Below are positions 7,639 through 64,000 of a stretch of DNA of 64,000 bases, piece after piece. The stretch lies in contig DASVRW010000002.1 in NCBI GenBank assembly GCA_036388415.1, forward strand, positions 975,396-1,039,395, written 5' to 3'. Position numbers and translations under genes: made by a program. Below the pieces are notes generated by a model that was given only the letters and a program-made list of their open reading frames with translations, was not told the DNA's origin and did no database searches. How positions within the stretch are numbered: the first letter of the stretch is position 1; every line of letters begins with the position of its first letter. This stretch comes from Candidatus Saccharimonadales bacterium. Its GTDB lineage: Bacteria; Patescibacteriota; Saccharimonadia; Saccharimonadales; UBA4665.

Positions 7639-7731
7639 CTGCATGGTTACATTAGATAGGAGGGGTATAAATCAGAATAACAGGTGCAACACGTCTGTCA
7701 TTCCTGTCATAATGTGGTAAGCTTAAGTTAA

Positions 7732-8328
7732 ATGCAGAAACCAAAATTAAAGTCATATTTCAGTCTGTTTACTCCGTCGCCGCTTGGTATAGTGTTTTAT
7801 GTCTTTTGGTCGGTGCTAGCAATAGCTTTGAATCAAATCGACGCTATTCAGAAGGTGTTGCAGCTGCCGCGCGGACTCGATTTTATTGGTGCGATAGCAA
7901 GATTTGCCGATCGGGTTTTGACATCAGCAATTGGTGAATCCAGTACCCAAACGCTGGTGGTGGGATTGTTTTGGGCCGGTGTTGGTATGGTCGTTTATGT
8001 TTTCCTGCGAGCATTGTCAAAGTTAGTGGTTGAGCTGGACGATGATATCGATGAGCGGCGCTACGTCTGGCCGAAAGGCATGAACCGCTCTGGGCCGCTG
8101 CTGATTTTTATAGAAAAGGGCATCTTGCGCACCGTTGCGGCTATTGCACTGATCCTAACAATTATCGGACCACTCGCAACGGTCATTAGCCGGCCGGTAT
8201 TTACTGATTTTCTTGGTTCAAATAAGCCACTGCAGTATATCGTATGGTTCATAAGTAGTGTGATCGTGTGGCACGTCGTGGTCGTACTGCTACGTTTAGT
8301 CGTACTTCGAGCCCGGTTGTTCGAATAA
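7732..8328 (+). CDS. Four-helix integral membrane protein, 198 aa
   Basis: Not recognised. Four hydrophobic helices can be read, at about residues 16-36, 75-97, 131-154 and 168-193. A charged loop (ELDDDIDERRYVWPKG) sits between helices 2 and 3. No catalytic motif is seen. CATAAT at 7708-7713 is a possible -10. No SD is visible before the ATG. Confidence 0.7.
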   Translation: MQKPKLKSYFSLFTPSPLGIVFYVFWSVLAIALNQIDAIQKVLQLPRGLDFIGAIARFADRVLTSAIGESSTQTLVVGLFWAGVGMVVYVFLRALSKLVVELDDDIDERRYVWPKGMNRSGPLLIFIEKGILRTVAAIALILTIIGPLATVISRPVFTDFLGSNKPLQYIVWFISSVIVWHVVVVLLRLVVLRARLFE

Positions 8329-57380: not shown

Positions 57381-59390
57381 CTACAAACCAGCGGTCCACC
57401 ACATAGCGTTCTGATGGTTATTGTAGTCATTGCTGGTTTGGCTGAGGAGCTCGATGAGGAGCGTGGTGATGCCGAGTTTGTCGTAGAGCCAATCTTCCAT
57501 GGCGCCGGTAGTGTCGTAGTCGAAAATGGCACCAGTTTGGGCGTTGGCGGAGAAGTAAACCGATGATTTGTCAGCATATTGGCGGGCGACTGCCACGCTG
57601 TCACCGGCGTCGTTCGGAATGACAATATTGCCGGAGGCGTGATAGGTCAGTACCAGCCGCGGACGCTGGGCTACCAGGTAGTCGGCGATGGCTCTGGACT
57701 CGGGCTCTGATAGCGGTGCAGACCCGCCGCCAGCGGGCAGGAATGTTTTGTTGGGCAGGGTGACGCCGGACTTCCAGTTGTTGGCCGGAAAGTTGCGGTT
57801 GAGATCGACATTGCTGGCGTTGGTGCGGCTGTTGGCGGCGTACCCGTCGGGATTGAGGGCAGGAATGACGATGATGGATGTCCGAGCGGGAATGCGGCTG
57901 GACTGGGCTTCGAGCTGTTCGATCCAGCGGTTCAGTATGGTGACGGAACTCTTTTCGTTGCCATGCGTGCCACCGACATAGACGATTTTGTTATCTCCGT
58001 TACCGAATCGGTAAGCGGTGATGCCTCGGCCGGCGGTAGACGTGCCGATGCTGAAAACTTGCTGGCAGGTTATGCGCGATGCGTACTGCCAAGCCGATCC
58101 CCCGACGACGCCGTGTTCGTTCTTCAGGCCGTCGAGTACTTTGACGGTAAATCCGGAGCAGGGCGCCAAACTGGCTGGTCGAATGGTAATGCTATTGCCA
58201 CTGGCAGATATGGCGGCGCTGACGTTGCCGCCTGATTCAATCTTGATAAAATCATTGAGATTTTGACCTGCGCCAATTGGGCTGTCGAAGGTCAGCACGA
58301 TCGGCTGGCCGGAGGAGATTTTGTAACTGCCAATGTTGACTGATTGCACTTTTGGGCCGCCCGATGTTGCGAAAGCAAGTGTATATGGAGCTGCTAAATA
58401 GCCGCCGTCGGCGGACGTGATGTTCTCAACGCTGAGCTGTAGCGACACGCTCCGGGGCAGCGGCTGTTCCAGCTTGAATGTCACGACCTTGTCTTTGAAC
58501 GTTGGGGTGGCCTTGATTGTCAGGGCCGGGCCGGTGGTGGTCTTGAGTGTCACATTCTTATAATTGTTGGCGGGCTTGTTGAGAGTCAGGGTAATTTCTG
58601 TCGGTATGCTGTATACGGTCTGTCCGCCAGTAATCGATGAGCTGACGACTTGCAGCGGCTCAACTATCTGAATAGACTGTCGGAGGGCGGTGCCAGCTGG
58701 ACGGCCCGCATAGTGCCGCTCGATGGCTACGTCGTAGCGGGCACCTTGGGTGAGGCGCAGGCTCGGCAGATCGCAGAGCAGCGCGTTGTCTTTCTGAGGA
58801 CATTCCGCCCGAACAGCCTTGGACTCGGTAATAGTCGAGATATGATACGTAAATACACGGTCGGCTTGATTGATGGTAAAGCGCAGCGGATCTTTGGTAG
58901 ATATGAGCTGACCTGGTGTTACTGACCGGCTCAGTGCTGGATATGAGCCAGTGGACACGCTGACAGTCTTGCGCAGCGCCGGTATACCGGGCAAGGCTAA
59001 TTTGATCTGTTGCTGAGAATTCTGCTGCGGAATATTGACGGCACGGAGACATGCGGTTCGGGCAAACAATACAGTTTTGCCAATAGATACGGTGGGGACG
59101 GAATCCAGCCGGAAGCTGCGGCTTGGTTGCTGACGGGTCGTACTTGGCAGAAACTGGGGCAAGAAGGTACAAGACTGGCTGGAATACGAAAATGCCACCG
59201 TCTTTGGCACGTAGAACTGCAGTACGTACACAGCGGCCAGCACCGCGAACACGATACCGAATATGATCGCAGATTTGCGTCTGCCGGGGAGCTTGCGACT
59301 GAGCGATTTGACATGTGCAACAAACGAACTGGCCATAGTCTGGCGAGGTTGTTGCTCGATTGGAGATTGCTGTACGTTGCCCGGATCCAT
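57381..59390 (-). CDS. Membrane-anchored M14 zinc carboxypeptidase
   Basis: A 669-aa protein. A transmembrane anchor (~41-61) precedes a ~380-residue extracytoplasmic region of beta domains (Big_5/Ig-like, e.g. ITLTLNKPANNYKNVTL). The catalytic M14 domain at ~445-669 has zinc ligands His476 and Glu479 (HGNE) and His584 (TYHASGN), substrate-binding Arg532 (VDLNRNFP), and catalytic Glu647 (LLIELLS). Similar enzymes trim peptidoglycan peptides (gamma-D-Glu-mDAP) or host proteins, fitting a surface role in an epibiont. Start at MDPGNVQQSP. Confidence 0.9.
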   Translation of the reverse strand: MDPGNVQQSPIEQQPRQTMASSFVAHVKSLSRKLPGRRKSAIIFGIVFAVLAAVYVLQFYVPKTVAFSYSSQSCTFLPQFLPSTTRQQPSRSFRLDSVPTVSIGKTVLFARTACLRAVNIPQQNSQQQIKLALPGIPALRKTVSVSTGSYPALSRSVTPGQLISTKDPLRFTINQADRVFTYHISTITESKAVRAECPQKDNALLCDLPSLRLTQGARYDVAIERHYAGRPAGTALRQSIQIVEPLQVVSSSITGGQTVYSIPTEITLTLNKPANNYKNVTLKTTTGPALTIKATPTFKDKVVTFKLEQPLPRSVSLQLSVENITSADGGYLAAPYTLAFATSGGPKVQSVNIGSYKISSGQPIVLTFDSPIGAGQNLNDFIKIESGGNVSAAISASGNSITIRPASLAPCSGFTVKVLDGLKNEHGVVGGSAWQYASRITCQQVFSIGTSTAGRGITAYRFGNGDNKIVYVGGTHGNEKSSVTILNRWIEQLEAQSSRIPARTSIIVIPALNPDGYAANSRTNASNVDLNRNFPANNWKSGVTLPNKTFLPAGGGSAPLSEPESRAIADYLVAQRPRLVLTYHASGNIVIPNDAGDSVAVARQYADKSSVYFSANAQTGAIFDYDTTGAMEDWLYDKLGITTLLIELLSQTSNDYNNHQNAMWWTAGL

Positions 59391-59440: not shown

Positions 59441-59869
59441 TTATTCTGGCTGCAGGACAGTCTTGCAGCTACTACAGTAGCCGTTTAATTCCACAGTGTG
59501 CTGCCGTAGGTCGAAGCCGTATTCTGCCTCGATATCGTGTAATGCTTTCTCAAGCCGGTCGCTCTTGATAGCTATGGATGTACCACATTGCAGGCAAGAG
59601 AAGTGATGATGGTGGGCAGAAAATCGCTCGCTGAGCTCGACACTGCTTTTCATGCCATTCCACACCCGGTGTACGATACCGATTTTTTCAAAGAGCCGGA
59701 TAGTTCTGTATACAGTAACTTTGTCGAGTGCAGGCAAGCTGTATATGAGTTGCTGGACGGTAGCCGGTTCATGCAGGTTTACCAAGGCTTCAAATATGCG
59801 GAGCCGCGGCAATGTCATGCTGTAGCCATGTTTGCCAAGTAATTCTGTAAGCTTTTGAGAAGTCTCCAT
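59441..59869 (-). CDS. Fur-family metalloregulator (possibly Nur- or Zur-like)
   Basis: A 142-aa Fur protein: N-terminal winged helix (MTLPRLRIFEALV, KVTVYRTIRLFEKIGIVHRV), the metal-sensing HHHHFSCLQCG (His86-89, Cys92, Cys95), and a second CxxC (Cys132, Cys135) for structural zinc. Its own promoter (TTGCAA, 17 nt, TACTAT at 59883-59878) gives +1 at 59871, 2 nt before the ATG. Three TTGCAA boxes lie over this region, suggesting autoregulation. The TTGCAA-N5-TTGCAA pair is like the Nur (nickel) box of Streptomyces. Next to a His/Cys-rich protein gene. Confidence 0.93.
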   Translation of the reverse strand: METSQKLTELLGKHGYSMTLPRLRIFEALVNLHEPATVQQLIYSLPALDKVTVYRTIRLFEKIGIVHRVWNGMKSSVELSERFSAHHHHFSCLQCGTSIAIKSDRLEKALHDIEAEYGFDLRQHTVELNGYCSSCKTVLQPE

Positions 59870-59870
59870 A

Positions 59871-59906
59871 TTGCAAAATAGTACACAAATTGCAACTAAT
59901 TTGCAA
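59871..59906. promoter_or_regulatory. TTGCAA operator cluster / shared divergent -35
   Basis: TTGCAA occurs at 59871-59876, 59890-59895 and 59901-59906; the last two are 5 nt apart. The palindromic box 59901-59906 is at -35 for both promoters: 17 nt to TACTAT (59883-59878) for the Fur gene and 17 nt to TAAAAT (59924-59929) for the gene at 59944. A repressor bound here would block both. Confidence 0.7.
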
Positions 59907-59943: not shown

Positions 59944-60573
59944 ATGAAAATATACGATACATTCGATGCGGTAATACACGATTATTTCGAGACAAATGCG
60001 GTAGGGTTCAGCTTTGACACGTGGGCTATCGCGAAGTTTTTGCATACATCTGATGCAGATTACCAGCAATTAGTTGCAACCGGCGGCAACACCCTTGGCT
60101 ATCAGCCGACAATGCTCACGCTTGCAGATCCATTGCAGCAGCAAAAAGATGAAGTAATAATTCGGAATCTTCCGACCTCAACCTATGCCGCAGTCCGCGA
60201 GCAGTATGCGCATCGTTTCATCGACCAGCTGCCTGGTCGGTTTGGGCTGTTTCACAGCGACAAAAAACAAGCCGATGCCATCTTTAACTCCTGGGAAGAA
60301 TTTGCGGGTGAATGGCTGGAGCGGGATGGTCAAAGTTTACTGCCATACAATCTGCCACTGTTATTTGACCATGTCTCAGACGCGGAATACTGGGGCTGGC
60401 AGCAAAAAGGTTTCGATCCTTGCGGTACGCAGCGTTTGATAGTGACGGTGTTTCAATATCGAACTGGCCGGTTCGCCGATGTATTCATAACCAATGTGAC
60501 TGATGCTGAAATGGCCCGTATCCGCATGCTGATCATGAGCAGATTGACACTCGGGATAAACGAAATTTTATGA
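59944..60573 (+). CDS. Hypothetical protein in the Fur divergon, 209 aa
   Basis: Not recognised. A soluble protein with conserved-looking aromatic/acidic patches (NSWEEFAGEWLERDGQSLLP, AEYWGWQQKGFDPCGTQR) and a single Cys. Its promoter shares the TTGCAA -35 with the Fur gene. The ATGA overlap with the His-rich protein gene means the two are coupled, so it likely works in the same metal-linked process. Confidence 0.65.
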   Translation: MKIYDTFDAVIHDYFETNAVGFSFDTWAIAKFLHTSDADYQQLVATGGNTLGYQPTMLTLADPLQQQKDEVIIRNLPTSTYAAVREQYAHRFIDQLPGRFGLFHSDKKQADAIFNSWEEFAGEWLERDGQSLLPYNLPLLFDHVSDAEYWGWQQKGFDPCGTQRLIVTVFQYRTGRFADVFITNVTDAEMARIRMLIMSRLTLGINEIL

Positions 60574-62507
60574 GTGGCTGCGAACAGCCGCATGATCATC
60601 GTGAGCATGAAACCGGCTTGCATACTGAGCATGGACTTGATGAGCACGTACACGGCCCGCACTTTCCAGAACAAAGCCAGCTGCCTGAACATACAATTGA
60701 GATCAAACATGCTCATGCCTGCGAGGCAGATTGCCCGGACCATCGGCAGAGTAATCATCAAGAAAATGGCGATAACATCAGTCGTGAGAATGCTCATGAG
60801 CCGAAACACCATATCGAACAGAAACCGCACGCTTGCGGTGCAGATTGCCATGAACATGGATCGGCGTCGTCGGTACACGAGCACAGTTCTTCTGTCGAAA
60901 AAAATCGTCTTGCGCCACCGATTATCGAACGGAAGCCCCATGCTTGCACAGCCGACTGTCCGGAACACGGCAGTCAGCATCATGCGGAACATAGTCATCG
61001 ACCTGAGAAAGCTCACGCGCCTGCCGTTGAGCTCAAAAACCAGTGCTGCGGCGTAGACGGGCCTCATGTCCACCACGGTGAGCATGAACACGCTCATGAG
61101 AAGCCGCACGAGCAAGCACGCCAGGGACGTCGAGAACATAGTACAGCGGCAATAGAGCATACACATCATCAGCACGACAAGAAACACGCAGAAGTACCGG
61201 TTGCTGATATTGCGCCGGCAGTTGAAAAACAACGCGCAGAAACAATCCCTGATAATTATGTGCTCGCAGAGGAAGCGCTACGCCGAACTGAAGCCGAGGT
61301 AAAGCAGAAAGAACTGGCCGCAGATGTGACGCAAGCTGTAAATGCGCAAGCCGTAAAAATCCGCGCGGAGCACTCGGAGCAAGCAGATGTGAATAATCAT
61401 GCAGAGCGCCACATGGATAAAAATCTGGAAGCGGTTGCTGAGAAGACAAACGAGGTTGCAGAGTCTGTCGAACCAGCTGCTGCCGTACGTGTACGAAATA
61501 GTGAGCCGATTACTGAAACCGAGACAGTAAATAACGAAACACACGTGCAGCCCCAAGCTGAAATAGTGGAAGACCATCCGACGCAGCAAACATCAAAGAC
61601 GTTAATGAATCGTGAAGGTGCGTCAATATCTGAGCCGACATATGAAGGCCAAAATGTTGTCAGTGCAGGCGAAACGACAGATTTTCAGGATGCTGACACA
61701 CTGGAAGTATCGAAGCTAGCAATAGCAGAATCGTATGCTGACATAGAAGATGAATCTGCACCTGCGGAGCGCGAACTTGACTTGGCTGAGGGCGAGGCGA
61801 CGCCTATACTCGCTGCTGTTGATGGCAGCGTTGATGTGCCAACAAGTCATTTTGAACAGTTTGAGTCGCAGCTGGACGTACCCATGATACCAGAGAAGGG
61901 CGCTGCGGATTCGGAACGTGCAGAACATGTTATTTTGCCTGCGCCGCTGCAGTATGCAGAAACTGACGAACTAGTAGAAAAGACTATAGATGTCGCGGCG
62001 GATTCAATTGGTTTAACAGAGCCGCAAAATACCGAACAAAATATTGAACTTGGCGAGCGAGCAGTGCCAGCCGAACTTGAAGCGCTCACCGCTGCAATAA
62101 CCGAACGGTACAAAGGAGAGCTCCGCAAACGTGCCGATAATGTAGAGACTACCAGCCCTCAATTTGCCCGCTTGGCAACAAGCATCGAACAATTATCGAC
62201 CACCAAAAATCGACTACCCGTCGAGGCCGCCCATGCATTGATATTGGAACAATTGCAGCTCCTCGGGTTTGAGCGGCCTATGCAAACACTTCAGTATTAC
62301 CACACACATTACGGAGAAGAATTTCTGCATGACATACTGAATCATTTGCGCCAGTTGATTGTCGACGGCAATACATTCGAAAGTATCGGTGGTCATGCCC
62401 GGCCGACTGCCGCTACGTTCCGTCATGGTGACGATATCACCGCCACTGTCGGTAAGTTTGTATTGCTTATTTTTGGTAATAAAGCCAGGTTCAGTACTCA
62501 GGTATAA
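60570..62507 (+). CDS. His/Cys-rich metal-binding protein, 645 aa
   Basis: The first ~206 residues contain about 40 His and three near-identical HACxADCxxH repeats (HACEADCPDH at 49-58, HACGADCHEH at 87-96, HACTADCPEH at 124-133), spaced 37-38 residues, plus a degenerate fourth (NQCCGVDGPHVHH, ~157-169) and HEHEHAHEKPHE. Such sequences bind Ni, Zn or Cu. The middle (~210-500) is acidic, Glu/Ala-rich and likely disordered or coiled. The C-terminal ~140 residues (LEALTAAITERYKGELRKRA ... ) look folded and helical. No signal peptide, so a cytoplasmic metal store or chaperone is the simplest view. Confidence 0.75.
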   Translation: MSGCEQPHDHREHETGLHTEHGLDEHVHGPHFPEQSQLPEHTIEIKHAHACEADCPDHRQSNHQENGDNISRENAHEPKHHIEQKPHACGADCHEHGSASSVHEHSSSVEKNRLAPPIIERKPHACTADCPEHGSQHHAEHSHRPEKAHAPAVELKNQCCGVDGPHVHHGEHEHAHEKPHEQARQGRREHSTAAIEHTHHQHDKKHAEVPVADIAPAVEKQRAETIPDNYVLAEEALRRTEAEVKQKELAADVTQAVNAQAVKIRAEHSEQADVNNHAERHMDKNLEAVAEKTNEVAESVEPAAAVRVRNSEPITETETVNNETHVQPQAEIVEDHPTQQTSKTLMNREGASISEPTYEGQNVVSAGETTDFQDADTLEVSKLAIAESYADIEDESAPAERELDLAEGEATPILAAVDGSVDVPTSHFEQFESQLDVPMIPEKGAADSERAEHVILPAPLQYAETDELVEKTIDVAADSIGLTEPQNTEQNIELGERAVPAELEALTAAITERYKGELRKRADNVETTSPQFARLATSIEQLSTTKNRLPVEAAHALILEQLQLLGFERPMQTLQYYHTHYGEEFLHDILNHLRQLIVDGNTFESIGGHARPTAATFRHGDDITATVGKFVLLIFGNKARFSTQV

Positions 62508-62662: not shown

Positions 62663-63196
62663 ATGGACAATGACAGAGGCAATACCAGGAGTGCTGATAA
62701 TAAAAAAACAAAGCTCATTGCGTGGGTTGTTATATTAGCTGCAATCGCAATAGTATATATTGTGGTAGCGTCGAGAAATAGCCAGGAGCCGGCGCCAGCA
62801 TCAAGCACGACAACTTCGAAAACCAGCGCTGCTGACACTACTGGTGCTAGCGAGACTAACGCAGGCGAGCAGGACACTGCTGCGAGCAGTGCGTACACCG
62901 ATGGCACATACACGGCGACTGGGTCATACCGCACGCCCGAAGGCACGGAATCGATCGATGTGACGCTGACAATTGCCAAAGGCGCGGTAACCGATTCATC
63001 GGTTGAAACCTCGGCCAGCGACCCGAAGTCAGCAAGGTATCAAGAGGACTTTACTGACAACTACAAGCAATATGTCGTTGGCAAGAGTCTGGACGAAATT
63101 AATCTGTCGCGTGTTTCCGGCTCATCGCTGACTTCGAACGGTTTTAATACGGCGCTGGAAGACATAAAGACAGAAGCAGCCACGCCAGCTGGCTAG
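62663..63196 (+). CDS. Membrane-anchored FMN-binding domain protein
   Basis: A 177-aa protein with a basic N-terminus and transmembrane helix (~18-37), a Ser/Thr/Ala linker, and an FMN_bind domain (~79-171, DGTYTATGSYRTPEGTESID). The flavin-attachment motif S/T-G-A-T is represented by SGSSLTS (residues 152-158), with Ser155 at the acceptor Thr position. Such domains carry covalent FMN attached by ApbE and pass electrons outside the membrane. TATACT at 62626-62631 may be the -10. The apbE gene follows 13 nt later. Confidence 0.85.
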   Translation: MDNDRGNTRSADNKKTKLIAWVVILAAIAIVYIVVASRNSQEPAPASSTTTSKTSAADTTGASETNAGEQDTAASSAYTDGTYTATGSYRTPEGTESIDVTLTIAKGAVTDSSVETSASDPKSARYQEDFTDNYKQYVVGKSLDEINLSRVSGSSLTSNGFNTALEDIKTEAATPAG

Positions 63197-63209
63197 GTAC
63201 GAAGATAAC

Positions 63210-64000
63210 ATGCAGGATACACGCTACCGTTTCGAGGCAATCGGCACAACCTGGACAATTGATATTTTTGATGCGATTGCAGCGGATAGCGCTGAACAAT
63301 TAATGCAGGCTGTGCATGAGCGGATTGAACGATTCGACAGCACCTATTCGCGCTTTCGAGAAGATTCAATGGTTACTAGCATGGCCGCTGAAGCCGGTAC
63401 ATATGTACTACCGGATGACGCTAGACCGCTGATGGACATGTATCAAAAGCTTTATGAAATGACAGATGGGCTGGTGACGCCGCTGATCGCCAGTACACTT
63501 GCTGAAGCTGGGTATGATGCTGCATATAGCCTGCGTCCTGGACGCATTATAGCGCCGCCAACATGGGAGGACGTCTTGGTGTATGACTTTCCAAACTTAA
63601 CGCTCCAGCAGCCAGCGCTGCTGGATTTCGGCGCCGCTGGCAAGGGCTATCTGGCTGATATTGTCGGAAGTATACTGGAAGAGCAGGGCATATCGGGGTA
63701 CTGTATCGATGCCGGCGGGGATATGGTGTATCGCACGCAGAACACTGAAAAATTAGATGTTGCGCTCGAACATCCGTCTGATCCGACGATGGCGATCGGC
63801 GTAGCAAAAATATATAATCAAAGTATCTGCGGATCATCCGGCAACCGGCGGGCATGGGACAAATATCATCACATCATAGACCCGGCATCTCTTGAGTCAC
63901 CGCGTCATATCGCTGCACTCTGGACGGTGGCTAATACGGGGCTGATGGCCGATGGGATCTCGACGGCACTGTTTTTCGTCAGTCCCGATGTGCTAGCGCG
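63210..64000 (+). CDS. apbE: ApbE FAD:protein FMN transferase (truncated by window end)
   Basis: 263 codons are visible. ApbE transfers FMN from FAD to Thr/Ser of FMN-binding proteins. Motifs: FDSTYSRFREDS, LLDFGAAGKGYLADIV, CIDAGGDMVY, YHHIIDPAS, and the magnesium-binding MADGISTALF. The frame is open at the window edge (64000); only a short C-terminal part should be missing. It has no signal peptide or lipobox, unlike most exported ApbE proteins. Operon partner of the FMN-binding protein gene. Confidence 0.93.
   Translation, partial: MQDTRYRFEAIGTTWTIDIFDAIAADSAEQLMQAVHERIERFDSTYSRFREDSMVTSMAAEAGTYVLPDDARPLMDMYQKLYEMTDGLVTPLIASTLAEAGYDAAYSLRPGRIIAPPTWEDVLVYDFPNLTLQQPALLDFGAAGKGYLADIVGSILEEQGISGYCIDAGGDMVYRTQNTEKLDVALEHPSDPTMAIGVAKIYNQSICGSSGNRRAWDKYHHIIDPASLESPRHIAALWTVANTGLMADGISTALFFVSPDVLA

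Follow-up and report, generated by a model that had tools for sequence, protein, structure and literature searches.

What is a protein of 645 amino acids doing in a reduced bacterium when its first 206 residues hold 41 histidines and nine cysteines? Its gene lies on the forward strand at positions 60570-62507 of the 64,000-nucleotide stretch analysed here (the window), which is taken from contig DASVRW010000002.1 of assembly GCA_036388415.1. The source is a Candidatus Saccharimonadales bacterium with a genome of Saccharibacteria type (1.14 Mb in two contigs, labelled G000 below). We refer to the product, a His/Cys-repeat acidic protein, as HCR, and to the 209-residue partner protein encoded directly upstream as X. 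An earlier, sequence-only reading had estimated about 40 histidines in the same 206 residues, in agreement with our count, and had suggested high-capacity metal binding; the richness in ligands is plain from the sequence, while binding itself is what that richness implies. We judge the chances to be somewhat better than even that HCR is a cytosolic zinc scavenger or chaperone, induced by zinc starvation and assisted by X as a dedicated partner. The predicted operator and regulon, the linkage of the genes, the repeats of HCR and the duplication within X are all well supported by sequence comparison.

The repeat protein HCR and its partner X

The locus reads, in order, a Fur-family gene on the reverse strand, a gap of 74 bp, X and HCR on the forward strand, then one gene that weakly matches an FMN-binding family and another for ApbE. 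The features of the cassette and its regulator are as follows (AF2, AlphaFold2; pLDDT, predicted local distance difference test score).

59441..59869, reverse strand: Fur-family regulator (Pfam FUR), Zur-like by the neighbours of its relatives (orthologues adjoin ZIP or ZnuA genes)
59890..59906, between the divergent regulator and X genes: predicted Zur-type operator TTGCAACTAATTTGCAA (25.7 bits with the relatives' matrix)
59944..60573, forward strand: X, 209 aa, internally duplicated (homologues, AF2 model, half-versus-half homology)
60570..62507, forward strand: HCR, 645 aa, His/Cys-repeat acidic protein (ATG-started reading frame overlapping the stop codon of X)
60690..60803, forward strand: repeat unit 1, HACEADCPDH at 60714-60743 (repeat profile E 1.4e-13, the unit being part of the profile)
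60804..60914, forward strand: repeat unit 2, HACGADCHEH at 60828-60857 (E 3.6e-13, likewise part of the profile)
60918..61022, forward strand: repeat unit 3, HACTADCPEH at 60939-60968 (E 5.2e-12, likewise part of the profile)
61038..61187, forward strand: Cys-Cys and dense His cluster, residues 157-206 (by sequence)
61188..62069, forward strand: acidic stretch, residues 207-500 (65 Asp/Glu against 21 Lys/Arg)
62070..62504, forward strand: C-terminal region of HCR, predicted helical with low confidence (AF2 from the single sequence, pLDDT 49)

Three HACxADCxxH repeats spaced by 37-38 residues had been reported, and these were found to begin at residues 49, 87 and 124 of HCR, with spacings of 38 and 37. 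In 20,000 shuffles of residues 1-206 the strict motif never appeared, and the looser HxCxxxCxxH occurred in two copies once and in three copies not at all; the repeats are therefore far beyond chance. The cluster at residues 157-206 is perhaps a degenerate fourth unit. The long acidic region that had been described next to the repeats was readily located, and from its composition it is presumably a disordered linker. For the folded C-terminus of the same description, the last 151 residues gave only the low-confidence helical model listed above.

No signal peptide was seen in HCR by eye, and no stretch was hydrophobic enough for a membrane helix (top 19-residue hydropathy of 1.08). In line with the earlier failure to recognise the repeat family, searches of Pfam and NCBIfam gave no family match for HCR, and no sampled genome had the repeat without X. 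The same searches found no match for X and no signalling domain; in Pfam, neither protein matched cobW and HCR, with its 645 residues and nine cysteines, matched no metallothionein. The C-terminal region of HCR has no paralogue in its own genome, and a search for similar C-terminal tails in other proteins of the region returned chance reading frames only.

The upstream gene had been noted as encoding an unknown protein. The lack of a family match stands, and X can now be described more closely as a conserved partner with a duplicated fold, the pair being present in two further families. In the AF2 model of X (pLDDT 86) the succession beta-alpha-beta-alpha-beta-beta-alpha occurs twice, and comparison of the profiles of the two halves gave a score of 39.6 against a maximum of 15.3 in 40 column-shuffled controls; the halves are thus homologous and X is an internal duplication. 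A fold search of the PDB with this model found no match at E ≤ 0.001, with template modelling scores of about 0.2. PHROG matches to X (E 0.001-0.006) were not used, being weak, partial and to families of unknown function, and a PADLOC search gave no useful result. The start codon of HCR overlaps the TGA of X as ATGA at 60570-60573, which agrees with the translational coupling proposed from the sequence, and the two genes probably form a translationally coupled cassette.

Distribution of the pair among relatives

When 393 genomes of the order were sampled, X and the HCR repeat turned up in the same five, spread over three families: that of the window and four others from two other families (G139, G152, G180 and G244, the last being the named Candidatus Saccharibacteria GW2011_GWC2_48_9). 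In all five, HCR is the next gene after X, overlapping or adjoining it, and a Fur-family gene lies nearby. A profile search with the repeat unit, which had been suggested as a check, matched exactly the five X-bearing genomes out of 393; since the HCR proteins of these genomes had themselves supplied the profile, this result shows restriction to these genomes and not an independent discovery. Within the bacterial family, searches with the full-length HCR and X proteins matched no genome but that of the window, and a contig scan with a second X profile recovered only the GWC2_48_9 locus. The cassette is rare: 380 genomes sampled from the phylum yielded no X beyond the order, and viral contigs and plasmids gave none. 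Weak X-profile matches at two loci (L027 and L028) were rejected, as they fell in a membrane protein with no His-rich neighbour.

The repeat core common to the families is HxCxxxCx(x)H, and its H, C, C and H are the sole invariant columns across all three. Three such units are present in the window protein, two in that of G152, two in that of G139 and four in that of G180, including one in another frame; the G244 protein has one clear unit and a partial unit beside a run of N. A LAEDLF-like segment follows the repeats in two families and is missing from the window HCR. Within the first repeat of the G180 gene the reading frame shifts (L016, about 7700-7930), which may point to an error in sequencing, to a disrupted gene or to phase variation of the repeat.

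The surroundings of X differ among the relatives: it lies 3' of pth in G180 and G244 and beside an rmuC-like gene in G139 (gene names assigned by eye). In G244 and G180 a small protein is encoded on the opposite strand between the Fur-family gene and HCR (L015 6067-6459 and L016 5755-6171, respectively), and just beyond it lies a gene for a DUF475/TerC-family membrane protein (L015 3992-5065 and L016 3673-4764). TerC-type proteins have been linked to metal handling.

The regulator and its predicted operator

Control by a Fur-type regulator had been proposed from the sequence alone; this is supported, and a probable operator was located. The regulator matched PF01475 (FUR) with an E-value of 2.1e-18 and 67.1 bits against a cut-off of 23.1. 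It passed none of the curated Fur or PerR models of NCBIfam, nor the Zur model PRK11639, against which it scored 40.8 bits with a cut-off of 167; because no curated model was passed, 'Zur' is used here as a functional label taken from context and not as a family assignment. Of 29 loci in relatives, 12 have a ZIP homologue next to the Fur-family gene and two have ZnuA there. ZIP and ZnuA are chiefly zinc importers, and the ZIP of the window's own genome resembles the zinc transporter ZupT. Given these neighbours, Zur is the best functional label for the regulator.

Sites resembling TTGCAA-N5-T[T/C]GCAA were found upstream of 25 of the 28 Fur-family genes in the bacterial family (window included), in most cases 17-20 bp ahead of the start codon, and the mean best match in these regions was 10.6 out of 12, compared with 7.3 for shuffled and 7.5 for reversed sequence. 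The gap between the regulator and X holds TTGCAACTAATTTGCAA at 59890-59906, together with a further TTGCAA at 59871. An operator matrix was built only from sites that precede Fur-family genes in relatives of the same family as the window, with the sites before X excluded. It scored 25.7 bits before X in the window, 21.9 in G180, 20.8 in G244 and 20.2 in G139, scores never reached in 1000 shuffles each, and the boxes lie 21-37 bp upstream of X in all four testable genomes (G152 was left out because its contig begins inside X). Across the window, 59890-59906 was the sole site of at least 9 bits. The genome as a whole (G000) contains three exact copies of the box: one before X, one before a ZIP gene and one heading a non-coding stretch with predicted structure. 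In G180 and G244, too, the ZIP gene is preceded by the box, at a distance of about 30 bp. One type of site thus appears to control both ZIP and the X-HCR cassette in two families, and the cassette in three; the regulon is most likely of Zur type, with the regulator, ZIP and X-HCR as its predicted parts.

The non-coding stretch with the third copy lies outside the window (L003 1490-1900, G000:C2 about 99933-100343). It spans some 400 nt with strong predicted structure (z -9.4), has a promoter-like start (TTGACA-N17-TAGAAT) and a terminator-like end, and carries the exact TTGCAA-N5-TTGCAA box at its 5' side; it gave no Rfam match at the gathering score and no tRNA or tmRNA. It may represent an RNA that has not been described before, and may perhaps belong to this regulon. 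In other relatives (L043 1985-2890, L045 1985-2890, L048 1989-2894 and L058 1993-2886) a boxed Fur-family gene faces a gene for a membrane protein of about 300 amino acids. This protein contains HGITPDEHTWPI as a motif and lacks a Pfam match apart from a weak one to DsbD_2 in L048; it is a candidate for an unrecognised metal transporter. Adjoining the Zur-like gene within the window, positions 57381-59390 encode a membrane-anchored Peptidase M14 protein (zinc carboxypeptidase) with Big_5 domains, a possible zinc client. On the other side, 3' of HCR (62663-63998), lie the genes for a small membrane-anchored protein with the weak FMN_bind match and for the ApbE flavin transferase, which are likely to form a flavin-dependent electron transfer unit with no connection to the cassette.

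Proposed role of the cassette

Zur proteins are usually repressors. If the regulator is one, X and HCR would be expressed in scarcity, because their operator is shared with uptake genes. In the mechanism that we propose, the Zur-type regulator would repress the cassette while zinc suffices, and zinc shortage would switch it on along with the ZIP importer. HCR would then act as a cytosolic zinc collector, with each HxCxxxCx(x)H core giving up to four ligands per zinc ion and the His clusters around the cores adding weaker sites; it would pick up zinc that enters via ZIP or is freed in the cell and keep it available, while X would either dock HCR or unload it onto clients. We infer from the regulon and the repeats that the metal is zinc, that HCR binds it, that scavenging or delivery prevails over storage and that X and HCR are in contact. 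Growth under metal excess, which had been suggested as an experiment, is probably a test the wrong way round, because the Zur-like regulator appears to control the importer as well and starvation would thus induce the pair.

Several observations weigh against this assignment. NCBIfam scores of the regulator were slightly higher for Fur than for Zur models, its paralogues could not be sorted by sequence alone, and the search for ZIP in G139 and G152 turned up no convincing gene. Of the other four HCR proteins, two have only two repeats, and metal binding by HCR is deduced from its sequence. Outside the repeat core the window HCR can barely be aligned with the others, so that its homology rests on its position after X, its composition and that core. 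Lastly, the predicted box TTGCAACTAATTTGCAA equals the consensus of the nickel regulator Nur, which is tTGCaa-N5-ttGCAA in Streptomyces (PMC3919588).

Owing to this identity, nickel stays a rival: the regulator would be a Nur-type nickel sensor and HCR a nickel binder, like Hpn or the His-rich tails of HypB and UreE, for scavenging or delivery. His-rich proteins do often bind nickel, but Cys-containing repeats favour zinc, and with regulator orthologues adjoining ZIP or ZnuA and an own ZIP that resembles ZupT, we regard nickel as unlikely. The metal could also be iron, with the regulator as Fur proper and HCR as an iron-binding protein. Ferric uptake regulators did give the top NCBIfam scores, though far under the cut-off, and in one relative (L037) a gene of the VIT1 family is next to that of the regulator; the box TTGCAA-N5-TTGCAA, however, does not resemble the classical Fur box and it is ZIP and ZnuA that the regulator gene usually adjoins, which leaves iron very improbable.

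With zinc as the metal, two other roles come into question. The sequence-only reading implied a store or detoxification sponge, loaded when zinc is plentiful, and the 41 His and nine Cys in the first 206 residues of each chain would suit such a task; an operator shared with importer genes would, however, silence the cassette when metal is in excess, unless this promoter is activated by the regulator, and we think this role quite unlikely. HCR might instead sense zinc or redox state, zinc loading or oxidation of HxCxxxCxH altering the binding of X, which would relay the signal. The long acidic linker that separates the repeats from the C-terminal region, the invariable position of X directly upstream and the LAEDLF-like segment of two families, a possible docking motif, are compatible with a sensor, but the window HCR is devoid of that segment and the Pfam and NCBIfam searches revealed no signalling domain; a sensor seems improbable to us.

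A zinc-collecting HCR can be compared with several known systems. The COG0523 GTPases (YciC/ZagA/ZNG1) are likewise cytosolic, induced by zinc limitation (as predicted for HCR), often His-rich and proposed to allocate scarce zinc, but HCR has no GTPase domain or CobW match and X has an unrelated fold. A His-rich region is found in about 40% of COG0523 proteins (PMC2770081). A search for COG0523 found none in the five genomes with the cassette, whereas it was positive in 13 of 14 control genomes; cobW was absent from G000, G139 and G152, and weak matches in G180 and G244 were rejected as lying inside a Der-type GTPase gene. PA4063 of Pseudomonas, which is periplasmic and induced by zinc deficiency (PMC8561739), and AztD-type carriers resemble the proposed HCR in being made in zinc deficiency, in their His-rich disordered zinc-binding segments and in their proposed chaperone role, but they are periplasmic, whereas HCR has no visible export signal and carries Cys-containing repeats and a long acidic linker. 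Bacterial metallothioneins (SmtA, Pseudomonas metallothioneins) share the repeated Cys/His metal ligands; HCR differs in its 645 residues with only nine cysteines, its dominance by histidine and its repeats every 37-38 residues. Hpn and Hpn-like proteins and the His-rich tails of HypB, UreE and SlyD are, like HCR, cytosolic with dense His clusters, but HCR is much longer, combines HxCxxxCx(x)H repeats with an acidic linker, is coupled to X and belongs to a regulator with zinc-importer neighbours.

Classical Zur regulons (znuABC, zupT, zur) have the regulator gene, operator and importer in common with the present one, to which X-HCR adds a transcription unit with no match in the families searched. 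Accessory zinc proteins are already known from other Zur regulons (PMC2770081, PMC8561739). The fold of X, the HCR repeat and their coupling were absent from the libraries searched, and the cassette looks like an undescribed zinc-handling module. The open-access literature searched held nothing relevant on Zur in Saccharibacteria or the Candidate Phyla Radiation and no paper on zinc management in reduced Patescibacteria genomes.

The outcome for this lineage is a concrete predicted operator, a three-part predicted regulon (regulator, ZIP and X-HCR) and a new protein pair. More tentatively, and with a good deal less confidence than in the chaperone itself, X-HCR might be a GTPase-independent zinc allocation system that fills the role of ZNG1/YciC-type proteins in genomes with no detectable COG0523. 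If X-HCR is indeed a zinc chaperone, it would represent a second, non-GTPase route to allocating scarce cytosolic zinc.
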